This document shows positions 24,493-42,108 of a DNA stretch of 48,875 nucleotides, piece by piece. The notes below the pieces were generated by a model. The model did not search any database. It saw only the letters and a list, made by a program, of their open reading frames with translations, and was not told the origin of the DNA. Every line of letters begins with the position of its first letter. Positions within the stretch are counted from its first letter, which is position 1. Both the position numbers and the translations under genes were made by a program. Origin of the DNA: Chloroflexota bacterium (GTDB lineage: Bacteria; Chloroflexota; Limnocylindria; P2-11E); the NCBI GenBank assembly GCA_005879975.1, contig VBIL01000160.1, positions 1 through 48,875 of the forward strand, read 5' to 3'.

Positions 24493-25844
24493 CCGACGTC
24501 GCGATCCGCGGGGGGACCGTCGTCACGCCAGACGGTGATCGGCGCGCGGACGTCGCGATCGCGGGCGGGCGCATCGCGTCCATCGGCGTGATCGAACGCG
24601 CCGATCGGGAGATCGATGCGCGCGGAAAGCTCGTGCTGCCGGGATGCGTCGATCTGCACACACACCTCGCCTCGACGCCGACGTGGCAGCCGCTCGACGG
24701 CTTCGAGCACGGCACGCGCGCCGCCGTGGCGGGCGGCGTCACGACGGTCGTCTCGATGGTCTACCAGGAGAATGGCTCGCTTCGCGCCGGTCTCGAGCGC
24801 GGCCTGCGCGACGCGGCGCGCTCGATCGCGGACTTCGCGTTTCACATCGTCGTGACCGATCCAAGTCCGGCTGCGCGCGCCGAGATCCCCGGTCTCGTGC
24901 GCGAGGGCCATGCCGGCCTCAAGGTCTTCATGGTCTCGCCAGGCTTCGCCGCACGGACCGCCGAGTACCTCGCCGCATATCGCGCAGCGGGCGAGGTCGG
25001 AGCGCTCGTGGCTGTCCACGCCGAGGACCACGCGCTCATCGCGAAGCGCACGGCCGAGCTGCATGCCGCCGGCCGGGTCGGGGTCGAATGGTTTCCCGAG
25101 AGCCGGCCGCCGCAGGCGGAGGAGATCGCCGTCCGCGCGGCGGTCACACATGCGCGCGAGACCGGCGTAGCGATGTATCTGGTGCATCTTTCGTCGCGCG
25201 GCGCGCTCGCGGCGCTCCGCGAGGCGCGCGCGGCGAGCCACCCCGTGCACGGAGAAACGCGGCCGCTCTACCTCTATCTGACGCGCGAGCGGTTCCGCCG
25301 TCCCGACGCCGCGCTCTGGGTCGGTCAGCCACCGCTGCGCGAGGCCGAAGACGTCACCGCGGTGTGGGCGGCGCTGGCCGACGGCACGCTCGACACCGTC
25401 GGCACCGACCACATCCCGCGCACACGAGCGGAGAAGCTCGCACCGGATCTCTCCTTCGATCGGATCCCGCCCGGCGTCTCGAATCTCGAGACGCTCCTGC
25501 CGATGCTCTATTCGGAGGGTGTCGTGAAGGGCCGCCTCACCCTCGCGCGACTCGTGGAAGTGCTCGCCACCGCGCCGGCACGGATCGCCGGCATGTACCC
25601 GCGGAAGGGCGTCATTGCCGTGGGCTCGGACGCAGACGTCGTGGTCTTCGATCCAAACGCGCGACGCGGTGTCCGCGCAGCCGACCTCCACTCGGCATGC
25701 GACTACGACCCGTACGAAGGATGGGACGTGACCGGCTGGCCGGAGGTCGTCCTATCGCGGGGCGAGGCGGTCTTCGAACGCGGGACCGTCGTGGGCCGGC
25801 CGGGACGCGGCCGCCTCATGCCACGAGCACCATACGCGGCATGA
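24489..25844 (+). CDS. Dihydropyrimidinase/hydantoinase-like amidohydrolase; probable CTG start
   Basis: (L)TDVAIRGGTVVTPDGDRRADVAIAGGRIASIG...GCVDLHTHLAS...GLKVFMVSPGF...GTDHIPRTRAEK. The N-terminal sandwich requires coding upstream of GTG 24588; only CTG at 24489 fits (CTGA overlap with prfA stop, SD gaggagga upstream). Confidence 0.85.
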   Translation: MTDVAIRGGTVVTPDGDRRADVAIAGGRIASIGVIERADREIDARGKLVLPGCVDLHTHLASTPTWQPLDGFEHGTRAAVAGGVTTVVSMVYQENGSLRAGLERGLRDAARSIADFAFHIVVTDPSPAARAEIPGLVREGHAGLKVFMVSPGFAARTAEYLAAYRAAGEVGALVAVHAEDHALIAKRTAELHAAGRVGVEWFPESRPPQAEEIAVRAAVTHARETGVAMYLVHLSSRGALAALREARAASHPVHGETRPLYLYLTRERFRRPDAALWVGQPPLREAEDVTAVWAALADGTLDTVGTDHIPRTRAEKLAPDLSFDRIPPGVSNLETLLPMLYSEGVVKGRLTLARLVEVLATAPARIAGMYPRKGVIAVGSDADVVVFDPNARRGVRAADLHSACDYDPYEGWDVTGWPEVVLSRGEAVFERGTVVGRPGRGRLMPRAPYAA

Positions 25845-26869
25845 GCGAGCAGGAGCCGACCCGCGTCGAGCAGGTCACGAAGCTCCTGAACCTCATCAGT
25901 GGGTACCACGTGACACACCTCCTCGAGATCGCCCGCGAGCTCGGGATATGGGAGCTCATCACGGCAGAGCCCGGGGTGACCGCGCGTGAGCTCGCCAAGC
26001 GTCTCGGGACCGAACCCTTCTACAGCGAGGTCCTTTGCCGGACCGCGTTCGCGTTCGACCTGCTCGCGCGTGAGCGTGACGGCTGGCGCATGGCCCCGCA
26101 CTTCGACGAGATCCTCGGGACGCCGGACAGCACCTTCTACCTTGGCCGGGCCGCCCAGGTGCACATGCAGGTCGGCCGGGACTACGCCGAGATGCCGCGC
26201 CGCTTCCGCGACGGTTCCATCTTCACGTTCCAGGACCACGATGCCGCGTTCATCGAAGCGGTCGCCGCGTCGCTGAAGACGCTCCCCCAGATCCTCACCG
26301 ATGTCGTGCTACCGAAGCTGCCGAAGCTCGAACGTCGCTTCGCTGACGGTGCCCGTGTCCTCGACGTCGGTTGCGGTGCCGGCTGGGCGCTCGTTCACCT
26401 GGCGGAGCGTTTCCCGAAGACGACGTGTGTCGGCGTCGACATCGAGCCGCGCTCGATCGAGCTCGCGAACGACCTCATCCGCTCACGCGGGCTCGCCCGT
26501 CGCTGCGCGGCGCGGGTCATGGGCGCGGAACGTCTTGCCGAGGACGGTGCGTACGACATCGCAACGAGCTTCCTGGTCGTGCACGAGATCCCACCCGCGG
26601 TGAAAGAGGATGCCTTCCGCGGCGTCGCGCGGTGCCTCGTTCCCGGTGGAAGCTTCGTGATCTTCGACGAAACGTATCCCGAAACAGATGCGGAGCTCCG
26701 GACGATGCCGACACGCTTCGCCGCGCTGGCGCAATGGTTCGAGCTCACCTGGGGTAATCGCGTGAACACCAGAGCGGAGGTCGATGCGCTCTGCGCTCAG
26801 GCAGGCCTTCGCATCGCCGACGAGACGAGGTACTCGAGGTTTGCGATCATTGTCGCGGAGAAGAAGTGA
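25841..26869 (+). CDS. SAM-dependent class I methyltransferase with winged-helix-like N-terminus
   Basis: LLNLISGYHVTHLLEIARELGIWELITAEPGVTARELAKRLG...GARVLDVGCGAGWALVHLAERFPKTTCVGVDIEPRSIELA. Confidence 0.85.
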   Translation: MSEQEPTRVEQVTKLLNLISGYHVTHLLEIARELGIWELITAEPGVTARELAKRLGTEPFYSEVLCRTAFAFDLLARERDGWRMAPHFDEILGTPDSTFYLGRAAQVHMQVGRDYAEMPRRFRDGSIFTFQDHDAAFIEAVAASLKTLPQILTDVVLPKLPKLERRFADGARVLDVGCGAGWALVHLAERFPKTTCVGVDIEPRSIELANDLIRSRGLARRCAARVMGAERLAEDGAYDIATSFLVVHEIPPAVKEDAFRGVARCLVPGGSFVIFDETYPETDAELRTMPTRFAALAQWFELTWGNRVNTRAEVDALCAQAGLRIADETRYSRFAIIVAEKK

Positions 26870-36011: not shown

Positions 36012-36350
36012 GTGAGACGGCTCGCCGCGATCCTCACCGGCCGCTGCCCGCGCTGCCTCGAGGGCAGAGTCTGGCGTGGGCTGTTCGCGATGAACGAGAC
36101 CTGCCCGGTGTGCGGGCTCCTTTTCGAGCGGGAGATCGGGTACTGGACGGGGGCGATGGTCGCGAGCTACGCGATCGGGATACCCGTCCTCGCGCTGATA
36201 TTCGTTGCGGTGTGGCTTGTGTCTCAATGGGATTTTCTCGTGGTGCTCCTTGTTGCGGACGGCCTCTTCTTCATCGCCGCGCCGTTCGTGTGGCGCTACT
36301 CGCGCATCGTCTGGTTGCATTTGGATTGGGTGTTGGATCCCGTGCGCTAG
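36012..36350 (+). CDS. DUF983 family membrane protein
   Basis: MRRLAAILTGRCPRCLEGRVWRGLFAMNETCPVCGLLFEREIGYWTGAMVASYAIG; two CxxC motifs. Confidence 0.85.
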   Translation: MRRLAAILTGRCPRCLEGRVWRGLFAMNETCPVCGLLFEREIGYWTGAMVASYAIGIPVLALIFVAVWLVSQWDFLVVLLVADGLFFIAAPFVWRYSRIVWLHLDWVLDPVR

Positions 36351-36360
36351 AGATGAGCCA

Positions 36361-36389
36361 ACATGCGTGGTCACATTAACCACGTGTGT
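36361..36389. repeat. Stem-loop after the DUF983 gene
   Basis: acatgcgtggt-cacatta-accacgtgtgt: 11-bp stem including two G.U pairs; no clear U-tract. Confidence 0.5.
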
Positions 36390-36463
36390 CAGCCTCAATG
36401 CCGAGGAAGCAAGGGGCACAAAACGTGCTGGCGCTGCTTTCAACCTAGGGGGAGTTTGAGAGC

Positions 36464-36643
36464 ATGCGACGCGGTGGGTTCGGTTGGAAAAGTCGTCTCG
36501 CTATCCTCGCGGCGGCGAGCGCGCTCGCCCTGGTCGGCATTCCCCTTGAGGCGAACGCGGGGCTGGTCCAGGCGGCCCGGACAGCGCCAGCAATGTCGTC
36601 GTCACCGATGTGGTCCCCGGTTCCACCACGATCGTCTCTATGA
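36464..36643 (+). other. Signal peptide ORF belonging to the DUF11 protein but in a different frame
   Basis: ATG at 36464 with SD gggggag: MRRGGFGWKSRLAILAAASALALVGIPLEANAGLVQ..., stop at 36641. The downstream DUF11 frame is shifted relative to it. Confidence 0.75.
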
Positions 36644-39600
36644 CCGCTCCTGCCGGCTGGACCTGCGTCAGTCCGGCTTCCGGCGGAACGGGCACCGTTA
36701 CCTGCAGCTTCTCCACGCTCCAAGCCTTAGCCGCGCCGCAGGTCCTCACGCTCGTGGTGAAGGTGAACCCGGGCACATCCGAGGGCACGACCATCACCAA
36801 CACCGCCGCGGTAACCAGCGCAACGATCGACGCGAACCCGGCGAACAACAGCGCGACCCTGACGACCATGGTCAAGACTCCGTTGGCCGACCTCTTCGCT
36901 ACCACCGCAGACGACCCGGACCCAGTCATCGCCAGCAAGGACCTCACCTACACCCTGACCATCGTCAACTCCGGACCCAACGGTGCGCAGGATGTCTGGG
37001 TCAGCGACCAGATCCCGGCGAAAACCACCTTCGTCTCGCTCGCGCAAACCAACGGCCCCACGTTCAGCTGCAGCACGCCAGCCGTCAGCGGCACCGGCAC
37101 CGTCAGCTGCAGCAGTTCGACATTTGCGTCCGGTGCAACGGCCACGTTCAGGCTCGTGGTGAACGTGAATGCGAACACCACGGCCGGGACCTTGATCTAC
37201 GACACCGTCACCGTCGCGAGCTCAACGAACGATCCGAATCCGAACAACAACTCCGACACCGGGAATACCCATGTCAAGACCGAGGCCGACCTCTTCATCA
37301 CCCAGGCGGATGACCCCGACCCGGTCATCGCCGGAGCCAACCTCACGTACACCCTCACTATCGCCAACGCCGGACCCAACGGCGCCCAAGGCGCCTGGGT
37401 GAGCGACCAGATCCCGGCGAACACCGTCTTCGTCTCGCTCGCCCAAACCAACGGCACCGTGTTCAACTGCAGCGCGCCACCCGTCGGCGGCACCGGGACG
37501 GCAAGCTGCAGCGCCGGCTCGCTCGCCGCCGGGGCCACGGCCACGTTCAGGCTCGTTGTGAACGTGAACGTGAATACCATGGACGGAACCTTGATCCGCG
37601 ACACCGTCACGGTCGGGAGCTCAACGAACGATCCGAATCCATGGAACAACTCCGACACCGGGAAGACTCAGGTCAAGACCGAGGCCGATCTCTCCGTCAC
37701 CAAGGCAGACGACCCGGACCCGGTCATCGCCGGCGATAACCTCACCTATACCCTGACCATCGCCAACGCGGGACCCAACGGCGCCCAAAGCGTCTGGGTC
37801 AGCGACCAGATCCCCGGGAACACCACCTTCGTCTCGCTCGCGCAGAACAGCGGGCCCGCGTTCAGCTGCAGCGCGCCACCCGTCGGCGGCACCGGGACGG
37901 TCAGCTGCAGCAATTCGACATTTGCCTTCGGCGCAACGGCCACGTTCAGGCTCGTGGTGAACGTAAACGCCAACACCACGGACGGAACCTTCATCCGCAA
38001 CACCGTCACGGTCGGGACCTCCACAAACGATCCGAATCCAGGGAACAACTCCGCTACAGTGAAGACTCAGGTCAAGACCGAAGCCGACCTCTCCGTCACC
38101 AAGGCGGATGACCCCGACCCAGTGAGCCCCGGGGCCAACCTCGCGTACATCCTCACCATCGCCAACGCGGGACCCAACGGCGCCCAGGGCGTTTGGGTCA
38201 GCGACGATATCCCGGCGAACACCACCTTCATCTCGCTGGCGCAGAACAGCGGCCCTGTCTTCAACTGCAGCACACCACCCGTCGGCGGCACCGGCACCGT
38301 AGGCTGCAGCGCCGGCTCTCTAGCCGCCGGCGCCATGTCCACGTTCACGCTCGTGGTGAACGTGAACGCGAACACGCCTGACGGAACATTGATCTGCAAC
38401 ACCGTCACGGTCGGGAGCTCCACAAGCGATCCGAATCCGGACAACAACTCCGACACCGAAAAGACAGAGGTCAAGACCGAAGCCGACCTCTCTGTCACCA
38501 AGGCAGACGACCCGGACCCGGTCATCGCTGGCAACGACCTCACGTACACGCTGATCGTCAACAACGCGGGCCCTAGCGACGCGCAGAACGTCGCGGTGAG
38601 CGACGAGATCCCGGCGAACAGCACCTTCGTCTCGCTCGCCCAAACCAACGGCCCTGTCTTCAACTGCAGCACGCCATCCGTCGGCGGCACTGGGACGGTA
38701 GGCTGCAGCGCCGGCTCGCTCGCCGCCGGTGCCACGGCCACGTTCACGCTCGTGGTGAACGTGAACGCGAACACCGCCAGCGGCACCACGATCAAGAACA
38801 CGGTCACCGTCGCGAGCTCCACGAGCGACCCCTGCCCGGGGAACAACAGCGACACGGAGAAGACAGAGGTCAAGACCGCCGCCGACCTCTCCGCCACCAA
38901 GGCTGATGATGTCGACCCGGTCACCGCCGGCAACAACCTCACGTACACGCTCATCGTGAACAACCCCGGTCCCAGCGACGCTCAGACCGTCTCGATCAGC
39001 GATCCGATCCCGGCGAACACCACCTTCGTCTCGCTTGCCCAGAACGGCGGGCCACCCTTCACCTGCAGCACTCCAGCAGTCGGCGGCACGGGCTCGGTCA
39101 CCTGCAACATCGCGACGCTGGCCGCCGGCGCGACGGCCAGCTTCGCGCTCGTGGTGAAGGTGGACGCGAACACGCCCGACGGCACCGTCCTCAGCAACAC
39201 GGTCACCGTGACGAGCACCACGACTGACCCGGTCCCGGGGAACAACAGCGCCACCGAGACGACCAAGGTCAAGAACGTCCCCGCTCCGTCCGCCGATCTT
39301 TCGGTCACGAAGGCTGATGATGTCGACCCGGTCACCGCCGGAAACAACCTTACATACACACTCGTTGTGAACAACCCCGGCCCCAGCGACGCCCAGAGCG
39401 TCTTGGTCAGCGACCCGATCCCGGCGAACACCACCTTCGTCTCGCTTGCCCAAAACGGCGGCCCAGCCTTCACCTGCAGCACTCCAGCAGTCGGCGGCAC
39501 GGGAACGGTCAACTGCAGCATCGCGACGCTGCCTGCCGGTATGTCGGTGACGTTCACGCTCATCGTGAAAGTGGACGCGACCACGGCTGACGGCACCGTC

Positions 39601-40113
39601 CTCAGCAACACGGTCACGGTGACGAGCACCACGACTGACCCGGTCCCGGGGAACAACAGCGCCACCGAGACGACCAAGGTCAAGAACGTCCCCGCTCCGT
39701 CCGCCGATCTTTCGGTCACGAAGGCTGACTCGCCTGACCCAGTCGCTGCCGGGGCCAACCTCACCTACACCCTCACCATCACCAACGCCGGGCCCAGCGA
39801 CGCCCAGAGCGTCTCGGTCAGCGACCCGATCCCGGCGAACACCACCTTCGTCTCGCTTGCCCAAAACACCGGCCCGACCTTCACCTGCAGCACCCCGGCC
39901 GTTAATGGCACGGGCACGGTCACATGCAGCATCGCGACGCTGCCGGCCGGCATGTCGGCCACGTTCACGCTCATCGTAAAAGTGGACGCGACCACGGCTG
40001 ACGGCACCGTCCTGAGCAACACGGTCACCGTCACGAGCAGCACTGCCGACCCGGTCCCGGGGAACAACAGCGCCACCGCGACGACCACGGTGCAGAGCGT
40101 TCCGCCGGCCTGA
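36574..40113 (+). CDS. Secreted DUF11/conserved-repeat-domain protein (8 full repeats and one truncated)
   Basis: Repeats of ADLSVTKADDPDPVIAGxNLTYTLTIANAGPNGAQxVWVSDxIPANTTFVSLAQxxGPxFxCSxPxVGGTGTVxCS...; the first, truncated repeat GGPDSASNVVVTDVVPG starts near 36574; the ORF track starts at GTG 36610. Confidence 0.88.
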   Translation, partial: GPDSASNVVVTDVVPGSTTIVSMTAPAGWTCVSPASGGTGTVTCSFSTLQALAAPQVLTLVVKVNPGTSEGTTITNTAAVTSATIDANPANNSATLTTMVKTPLADLFATTADDPDPVIASKDLTYTLTIVNSGPNGAQDVWVSDQIPAKTTFVSLAQTNGPTFSCSTPAVSGTGTVSCSSSTFASGATATFRLVVNVNANTTAGTLIYDTVTVASSTNDPNPNNNSDTGNTHVKTEADLFITQADDPDPVIAGANLTYTLTIANAGPNGAQGAWVSDQIPANTVFVSLAQTNGTVFNCSAPPVGGTGTASCSAGSLAAGATATFRLVVNVNVNTMDGTLIRDTVTVGSSTNDPNPWNNSDTGKTQVKTEADLSVTKADDPDPVIAGDNLTYTLTIANAGPNGAQSVWVSDQIPGNTTFVSLAQNSGPAFSCSAPPVGGTGTVSCSNSTFAFGATATFRLVVNVNANTTDGTFIRNTVTVGTSTNDPNPGNNSATVKTQVKTEADLSVTKADDPDPVSPGANLAYILTIANAGPNGAQGVWVSDDIPANTTFISLAQNSGPVFNCSTPPVGGTGTVGCSAGSLAAGAMSTFTLVVNVNANTPDGTLICNTVTVGSSTSDPNPDNNSDTEKTEVKTEADLSVTKADDPDPVIAGNDLTYTLIVNNAGPSDAQNVAVSDEIPANSTFVSLAQTNGPVFNCSTPSVGGTGTVGCSAGSLAAGATATFTLVVNVNANTASGTTIKNTVTVASSTSDPCPGNNSDTEKTEVKTAADLSATKADDVDPVTAGNNLTYTLIVNNPGPSDAQTVSISDPIPANTTFVSLAQNGGPPFTCSTPAVGGTGSVTCNIATLAAGATASFALVVKVDANTPDGTVLSNTVTVTSTTTDPVPGNNSATETTKVKNVPAPSADLSVTKADDVDPVTAGNNLTYTLVVNNPGPSDAQSVLVSDPIPANTTFVSLAQNGGPAFTCSTPAVGGTGTVNCSIATLPAGMSVTFTLIVKVDATTADGTVLSNTVTVTSTTTDPVPGNNSATETTKVKNVPAPSADLSVTKADSPDPVAAGANLTYTLTITNAGPSDAQSVSVSDPIPANTTFVSLAQNTGPTFTCSTPAVNGTGTVTCSIATLPAGMSATFTLIVKVDATTADGTVLSNTVTVTSSTADPVPGNNSATATTTVQSVPPA
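36886..40113 (+). repeat. Tandem coding repeat: units start at 36886, 37285, 37684, 38083, 38482, 38881, 39292, 39703
   Basis: Unit starts located at the GCC-GAC/GAT (Ala-Asp) codons; spacing 399 nt up to 38881, then 411 nt. Confidence 0.9.
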
Positions 40114-40167: not shown

Positions 40168-42108
40168 GTGGCGCTAATGCGCCCGGCGTGGGAGCCCACC
40201 GAGCGGTACCTCGAGCGAAGCCGCCTTCGCCGCTTTGCGGAGCGCAACGGGCATCCTGACTACGCATCGATGCTGCGCTGGTCCACCGATGACCTCGCGG
40301 GCTTCTGGCGCGCGACCGAGCGCGACCTCGGGATCGTCTGGCGCACGCCGTACACGCGAGTCCTCGACCAAAGCCGCGGCCTTCCGTGGACGACGTGGTG
40401 GACCGGCGGCCGCATGAACTACGTGGCGACCGCGCTCCGGCACGATCCGACGCACGTCGCGGTCATCGCCGAAGCTGAAGAGGGCACCGTCCGCGTCCTC
40501 ACATACGGGGAGCTCGCCGACCATGTCGCGCGCTTTGCCACGGGTCTGCGCTCGCTCGGCGTCAAGAAGGGCGACCGTGTCGCGGTCTTCCTTCCGCTGA
40601 CGGTCGAATGCGCGGTCGCGGTGCTCGCCATCGGCGCCGTCGGCGCCGTGTTCATCCCGGTGTTCTCGGGATACGGCGCGGAGGCCATCGCCGGACGCCT
40701 AAAGGACGCGGAGGCCAAGGTGCTGGTCTGCGCCGACGGCTTCTTCCGCCGCGGGTCGGTCGTGGCGATGAAGGAGACGGCGGACGAGGCGGCGGACCGC
40801 GCGCCGTCGGTCGAGACCGTCGTTGTGGTCGACCGCGTCGGCCGCGCCTATCCCAAGCGCGGGCGCGATGTCGCCTGGTCGGAGGTCACCCCCGAGGGCG
40901 CGATCCTCGATGTCGCCGACACCAGCGCGGAAGACCCGTTCATGGTCATCTACACGTCCGGCACGACAGGGAAGCCGAAGGGCGCGCTACACGTACACGG
41001 TGGGTTTCCGCTGAAAGCCGCGCAGGACCTCGCGCACTGCTTCGATCTTCAACAAGGCGACGTGATCCTTTGGTCCACCGACATCGGCTGGATGATGGGG
41101 CCGTGGCTCATCGCCGGCGGGTTGATGCTCGGGGCGACCATCGTCCTCTACGACGGCACACCGGACTTCCCCGACGCATCGCGGATGTGGTCGATGGTCG
41201 AACGTCATCGCGTGACCCACCTCGGCATCTCGCCCACGGCGATCCGTGGACTCATGCGCTCCGGGGAGGCTCCTGTGCGAGCGAAGGATCGGTCTTCGCT
41301 CTTCGTGCTCGGTTCGACCGGGGAGCCGTGGAACCCCGACCCGTGGTGGTGGTATTTCCGGAATGTCGGGGAATCGCGCTGCCCGGTCATCAATTACTCG
41401 GGCGGCACCGAAATCTCCGGTGGCATCGTCGGGTGCACGACCTGGACGCCGATCCAGCCAGGCTCGTTCGCCGGCCCCTGCCCGGGCATGGCGGCGGACG
41501 TCGTCGACGAGCAGGGCCGCCCGGTGCGCGGCGCGGTCGGCGAGCTCGTCATCAGCAAGCCCTGGCCGGGAATGACGCGCGGCTTCTGGCGCGACCCGCA
41601 CACCGCGGAAAGCCGCTATCTGCAGACGTACTGGAGTCGCTTCGAGAACGTCTGGGTCCATGGCGACTGGGCGCGGATCGATGATGAGGGCTTCTGGTAC
41701 ATCGAGGGCCGCAGCGACGACACCCTGAAGGTGGCGGGCAAACGCGTCGGGCCGGCCGAGGTCGAATCCGCCGCGGTCGCGCATCCCGCGGTCTCCGAGG
41801 CCGCCGCCATCGGCGTCCCGCACGAGATCAAAGGAGAGGTCATCGTGGTGTTCGCCGTGCTGCGGCCCGGGCACCAGGCTGCGCCCGACCTCGCGCGATC
41901 GGTGCAGGACAAGGTCGCGGAGATCCTCGGGAAGCCGCTGCGGCCCGACGGCGTGCGTTTCGTGACGCAGCTTCCGAAAACGCGGAACGCGAAGATCCTG
42001 CGCCGCGTCATCCGCGGCGCGTACCTCGGGAAGGACGATCTGGGCGATCTCTCATCGCTTGAGAATCCCGCCGCCGTGGACGAGGTGCGGGCGCTCGCGA
42101 TCTCCTGA
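40168..42108 (+). CDS. AMP-dependent acyl-CoA synthetase (acetyl/acetoacetyl-CoA synthetase-like)
   Basis: YTSGTTGKPKGALHVHGGFPLKAAQDLAHCFDLQQGDVILWSTDIGWMMGP; GSTGEPWNPDPWWWYFRNVG; GRSDDTLKVAGKRVGPAEVES. Confidence 0.93.
   Translation: MALMRPAWEPTERYLERSRLRRFAERNGHPDYASMLRWSTDDLAGFWRATERDLGIVWRTPYTRVLDQSRGLPWTTWWTGGRMNYVATALRHDPTHVAVIAEAEEGTVRVLTYGELADHVARFATGLRSLGVKKGDRVAVFLPLTVECAVAVLAIGAVGAVFIPVFSGYGAEAIAGRLKDAEAKVLVCADGFFRRGSVVAMKETADEAADRAPSVETVVVVDRVGRAYPKRGRDVAWSEVTPEGAILDVADTSAEDPFMVIYTSGTTGKPKGALHVHGGFPLKAAQDLAHCFDLQQGDVILWSTDIGWMMGPWLIAGGLMLGATIVLYDGTPDFPDASRMWSMVERHRVTHLGISPTAIRGLMRSGEAPVRAKDRSSLFVLGSTGEPWNPDPWWWYFRNVGESRCPVINYSGGTEISGGIVGCTTWTPIQPGSFAGPCPGMAADVVDEQGRPVRGAVGELVISKPWPGMTRGFWRDPHTAESRYLQTYWSRFENVWVHGDWARIDDEGFWYIEGRSDDTLKVAGKRVGPAEVESAAVAHPAVSEAAAIGVPHEIKGEVIVVFAVLRPGHQAAPDLARSVQDKVAEILGKPLRPDGVRFVTQLPKTRNAKILRRVIRGAYLGKDDLGDLSSLENPAAVDEVRALAIS

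Follow-up and report, generated by a model that had tools for sequence, protein, structure and literature searches.

How can a gene that begins with a convincing secretion signal continue into a long array of surface-type repeats that are read in a different frame? This question is raised by a locus on the forward strand of contig VBIL01000160.1 (48,875 nt; hereafter, the window) from an uncultured member of the Chloroflexota, whose draft genome comprises 2.66 Mb in 210 contigs and is 82.7% complete. Any answer has to account for the frame change, for a first repeat that starts in the middle and for the presence of the entire gene at a site where the closest relatives lack it.

A leader and a repeat array in two frames

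The leader opens with an ATG at 36464, immediately preceded by the ribosome-binding site GGGGGAG, a good Shine-Dalgarno sequence, and ORF translation shows that this frame runs for 59 codons to the TGA at 36641-36643. The N-terminal sequence read from this start, MRRGGFGWKSRLAILAAASALALVGIPLEANAGLVQAARTAPAMSSSPMWSPVPPRSSL, resembles a textbook signal peptide, with a positively charged N-region, the hydrophobic stretch AILAAASALALVGI and then EANA. Translation thus bears out the first-pass annotation, which had reported this start, a clear signal peptide and a frame closing at 36641. Judging from translation and composition, the leader proper (36464-36577, frame 2) extends through EANA to a few residues of the mature N-terminus, and is followed by an out-of-frame tail (36578-36643) whose terminal TGA overlaps an ATG of the array frame at 36640 (ATGA). 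Signal-like leaders equipped with a ribosome site are found at six of the 499 candidate starts in the window, compared to 0 or 1 in each of 20 shuffles; the combination at 36464 is not a chance occurrence.

The array is read one base off the leader frame. Its frame follows a stop codon at 36547-36549, is open from 36550 to 40110, ends with the stop codon at 40111-40113 and overlaps that of the leader by about 90 nt; apart from the break at its beginning, it is clean over about 1,100-1,180 codons. Nine DUF11 domains are encoded in this frame, all scoring above the Pfam cut-off for PF01345 (53.6-92.2 bits vs 24.6). Domain 1 (36571-36885; E value 5.1e-14) matches only positions 29-113 of the model, whereas the other eight enter it at positions 1 to 7; domains 2-9 (36886-40113) are complete and lie in a single open frame. 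The claims that the repeats are out of frame with the leader and that the first of them starts mid-unit are therefore both upheld. Pfam detects only DUF11-type and related Ig-like domains up to the last residue of the protein, and no adhesive, sorting or C-terminal anchor domain was found. Nor does the sequence contain a signal peptide in frame with the repeats, the leader and array frames being different. The only alternative start in the array frame ahead of the main body of the array is a GTG at 36610, which has neither a ribosome site nor a signal peptide, and it was rejected.

The periodicity noted previously is exact: the GP motif of the partial repeat (GGC-CCG at 36574) precedes the next one (36973) by 399 nt, and a full unit in this register would start at 36487 (36886 minus 399), within the signal peptide. 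Despite this spacing, the view of unit 1 as a near-copy of unit 2 does not stand: in ungapped comparison, unit 1 is only about 40% identical in DNA to unit 2 and to the others, and units 2-6 are 77-84% identical to one another. To judge from these sequences, unit 1 is an old, divergent unit rather than a recent copy. Summed over ten unit pairs, the differences between units number 183, 199 and 381 at the first, second and third codon positions, respectively, an excess which implies that the protein was under selection during divergence of the repeats, an implication that does not extend to the time after the break.

The missing strands and the size of the shortfall

What, then, is missing from domain 1? 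In a whole unit modeled structurally (pLDDT 95.5), two β-strands, A (residues 3-10) and B (residues 19-28), lie ahead of the point at which the partial unit begins. A fold search with this model retrieved the crystal structure of a CLIPPER domain (9IFR; TM 0.74/0.80), with the CnaA-like Ig fold; when the unit profile was searched against PDB sequences, no match was obtained. A Lys-Asp-Asn isopeptide bond has been demonstrated in DUF11 with this structure, and some members of the family lack the bond (PMC12617251). According to the model, residues 1-28, absent from domain 1, would comprise strands A and B of a CLIPPER (DUF11) stalk domain and, with them, the position of the isopeptide lysine. 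In its present form, unit 1 is not expected to fold into a complete domain by itself.

In the remainder of the array, the similarity to CLIPPER domains (PF01345; 9IFR; PMC12617251) is evident from the nine above-threshold Pfam matches and the shared fold. In domains 4-9, the three positions of the putative bond are occupied by K7, D41 and N121/122, with a Lys-Asp spacing of 34 compared to 33 in 9IFR. The points of departure are the truncated domain 1, the absence of any detectable adhesive or sorting domain, and the residue at position 7, which is lost in unit 1, T in unit 2, Q in unit 3 and K in units 4-9. As a separate observation, domains 2 and 3 (36886-37683) lack the lysine that is kept in domains 4-9, and the N-terminal end of the array may be uncrosslinked.

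The point at which the frame changes can be located from unit geometry and from a switch in composition. GC content at the three codon positions of the leader frame is 0.76, 0.58 and 0.76 before 36578 and 0.52, 0.81 and 0.52 after it, so the frame of the array takes over there, at the junction GGCGGCC (36571-36577). In all eight complete units, the distance from the A of the ADL motif to the G of the GP motif is 87 nt. At the junction, Q-A-A of the leader together with the CGGAC after it matches an ADL start directly, and the corresponding distance is -1, which amounts to a shortfall of 88 nt provided that the N-terminus of domain 1 was of the standard form and that the leader ran straight into it. 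Because 88 equals 1 modulo 3, a loss of this length accounts for the frame change. The linkers between leader and domain in related proteins span roughly 17 to 24 residues; if the intact gene possessed such a linker, for example, the 17 residues found in the G010 homologue described below, the loss was larger by a multiple of three. The heptamer GGCGGCC can be taken either as the last letters of QAA in the leader or as the first ones of GGP, a double reading that makes a deletion via short homology natural. Participation of the heptamer in a deletion is an attractive conjecture, the lost stretch itself being absent from any sequence.

Homologues and genomic setting

Comparison with homologues, proposed in the first-pass annotation as a check, shows what an unbroken gene of this kind looks like. 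Among the close relatives, a homologous protein is encoded in only one genome, G010 (C150, L050), at a different genomic site; a syntenic orthologue is found nowhere in the genus. The repeats of the G010 protein are 56% identical to those encoded in the window, and it likewise has a signal peptide and consists of repeats to its end without an anchor. Unlike the window gene, it has only three domains, and its leader, 17-residue linker and complete domain 1 are all encoded in one frame. In a one-domain relative from G003, too, leader and domain share a frame. A survey of DUF11-bearing ORFs turned up no complete leader-bearing homologue with such a truncation: a few are matched from positions 7-15 of the unit model onward, and the one further case of a late start, at position 66 (L071, 11048), is a weak match in a Lysobacter frame. 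A search of genome contigs recovered DUF11 proteins that were all distant (identity of about 29-36%). With the leader joined to a consensus unit, a query built for searching only, no leader homologue was found.

The gene is bounded by two conserved neighbors on the same strand. Upstream is a 112-aa DUF983-like membrane protein (36012-36350; PF06170, just over the cut-off), which is 84% identical in G004, the closest relative compared (about 89% DNA identity along most of the window), and is syntenic in nine same-genus genomes including the window's own. Downstream, an AMP-binding acyl-CoA synthetase (40168-42108; identified by Pfam, 87% identical in G004) starts, in G004, 29 nt after the DUF983 gene. 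In eight same-genus genomes, this site is without the 3.8 kb (36351 to about 40150) that includes the DUF11 gene: in G004 and five others, the site is empty, with only a short spacer, and in G009 and G010 it is occupied by an unrelated gene about 1.1 kb long that encodes a protein. By this comparison, the DUF11 gene is a species-specific insertion between the DUF983 and acyl-CoA synthetase genes; inspection by eye revealed no evident transposase, terminal repeat or target duplication at the insertion.

The 5' region of the gene (36351-36463) has a lower GC content (55%), and no similar DNA of appreciable length was detected among 28 genomes of the family. A riboswitch or another known RNA in this region was considered and rejected, with no match to any Rfam family. 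The same region contains a strong hairpin at about 36360-36390 (11 pairs, 7-nt loop; fold z-score -2.5).

When the ORFs of the window were compared to G004, no other clear frame break was seen in conserved genes, several multi-piece matches being judged to represent shadow frames. Elsewhere in the window, about 900 nt at 25900-26860, which encode a methyltransferase domain at the 3' end of an ORF (24644-26869), have no counterpart in G004, although both flanks match. Core genes also appear to be broken in drafts of related genomes: the acyl-CoA synthetase of G010 is in two pieces, and a histone-deacetylase-like gene of G006 contains a duplicated stretch (L108:4257-6081, L107:6271-7893).

Deletion, assembly error and other explanations

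The hypothesis that, in our view, accommodates these facts best is that a stalk gene was gained and then recently underwent a single deletion, about 88 nt in length (or longer, but equal to 1 modulo 3), between the leader region and the middle of domain 1; we rate its chance of being correct as roughly even. Under this scenario, a gene encoding a secreted stalk protein composed of tandem DUF11 (CLIPPER) Ig-like domains would have been inserted between the two conserved genes. One deletion at or near GGCGGCC, possibly mediated by short homology, would then have joined the end of the signal-peptide region to mid-domain 1, stripping this domain of strands A and B and throwing the leader out of the frame of the array. 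Ribosomes that begin at the leader ATG would stop after 59 codons, and no exported repeat protein would be expected from the sequence as written. The situation resembles that of pseudogenes formed by small deletions at short direct repeats, in that a frame-breaking loss coincides with short homology at the junction, and differs in that the deleted stretch is unseen here and its homology is a matter of reconstruction. The frame-breaking fusion of the leader to the middle of a repeat, as suggested in the first-pass annotation, is thus supported by the 88-nt shortfall, the in-frame homologue in G010 and the lack of another start, whereas two of the three causes that it offered are not. One of these is long-standing decay, which is at odds with the open array and the dominance of third-position differences. 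Given that the rest of the array is open, that the repeats differ mostly at third positions and that the nearby genes are intact, the break looks either young or artefactual.

An artefact has to be taken seriously. The gene in the living organism might be intact, with the draft having dropped some 88 nt where the 399-nt tandem array begins, through a gap join, a mixture of strains or a chimeric read; we regard this as a substantial possibility that nevertheless falls short of an even chance. The draft is fragmented and incomplete, long arrays of near-identical tandem repeats are a known trouble spot, and the core-gene breaks in the G010 and G006 drafts are suspicious. As a rule, a frameshift in a metagenome assembly is an error (PMC13087279), a general statement that we count in favor of this explanation; the literature on frame errors in repeats of such assemblies likewise offers general statements only. 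Against an artefact, the junction lies in the most divergent and least repetitive unit, the shared GGCGGCC is too short for a k-mer collapse, and the remainder of the contig is clean in comparison with G004. No second allele was found in the organism's own genome. A deletion and an assembly error predict the same contig; a junction in non-repetitive sequence with 7 shared nucleotides makes us lean to one that was present in the reads and is real in at least some cells, and hence to favor a real, recent deletion.

The remaining explanations fare worse. The leader and the array might never have formed one gene, a headless array having been inserted as a fragment next to an unrelated leader fragment located 5' of it. 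The absence of the whole 3.8 kb from this site in relatives leaves such a history conceivable, but the leader, ribosome site and junction are placed just as in a stalk gene and the last residues of the leader fit the start of a unit, and we consider this version improbable. Even less probable is that the gene works as is, either through a -1 slip between 36550 and 36640, for which the overlap of about 90 nt provides room and which has the needed direction, or through re-start at the ATGA overlap at 36640. There is, however, no X-XXY-YYZ heptamer between 36545 and 36643, the domain would still be deprived of strands A and B after slippage, the ATG at 36640 codes for an ordinary domain residue, and the product of re-start would have no signal and a still larger part of domain 1 would be absent from it. 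Variability is common among repeat-rich genes for surface proteins, and the second unsupported cause, the off state of a phase-variable gene that flips by slippage or recombination, has this much in its favor; yet in the leader region (36440-36660) homopolymers do not exceed 5 nt, the short repeats consist of just three units and are not suitable as a switch, no invertible or duplicated switch is seen, an 88-nt loss cannot be reversed by slippage and no second copy of the leader was found in the genome, which makes this alternative very unlikely indeed. The least credible notion, drawn by analogy with donor-strand pilins, is that the gene functions through recoding or re-initiation and that a strand of a second molecule would complete domain 1.

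Thus, whether the deletion is real or the assembly is flawed, we are dealing with an ordinary broken gene or an assembly flaw, not with a new mechanism or a new kind of system. The case nevertheless calls for caution, given that one small deletion can make nine-domain surface proteins look headless in draft genomes, and an annotation that starts at the GTG at 36610 would enter the protein as non-secreted. Should the deletion prove real, what we observe would be a recently gained, putative surface stalk being lost in part of a population.
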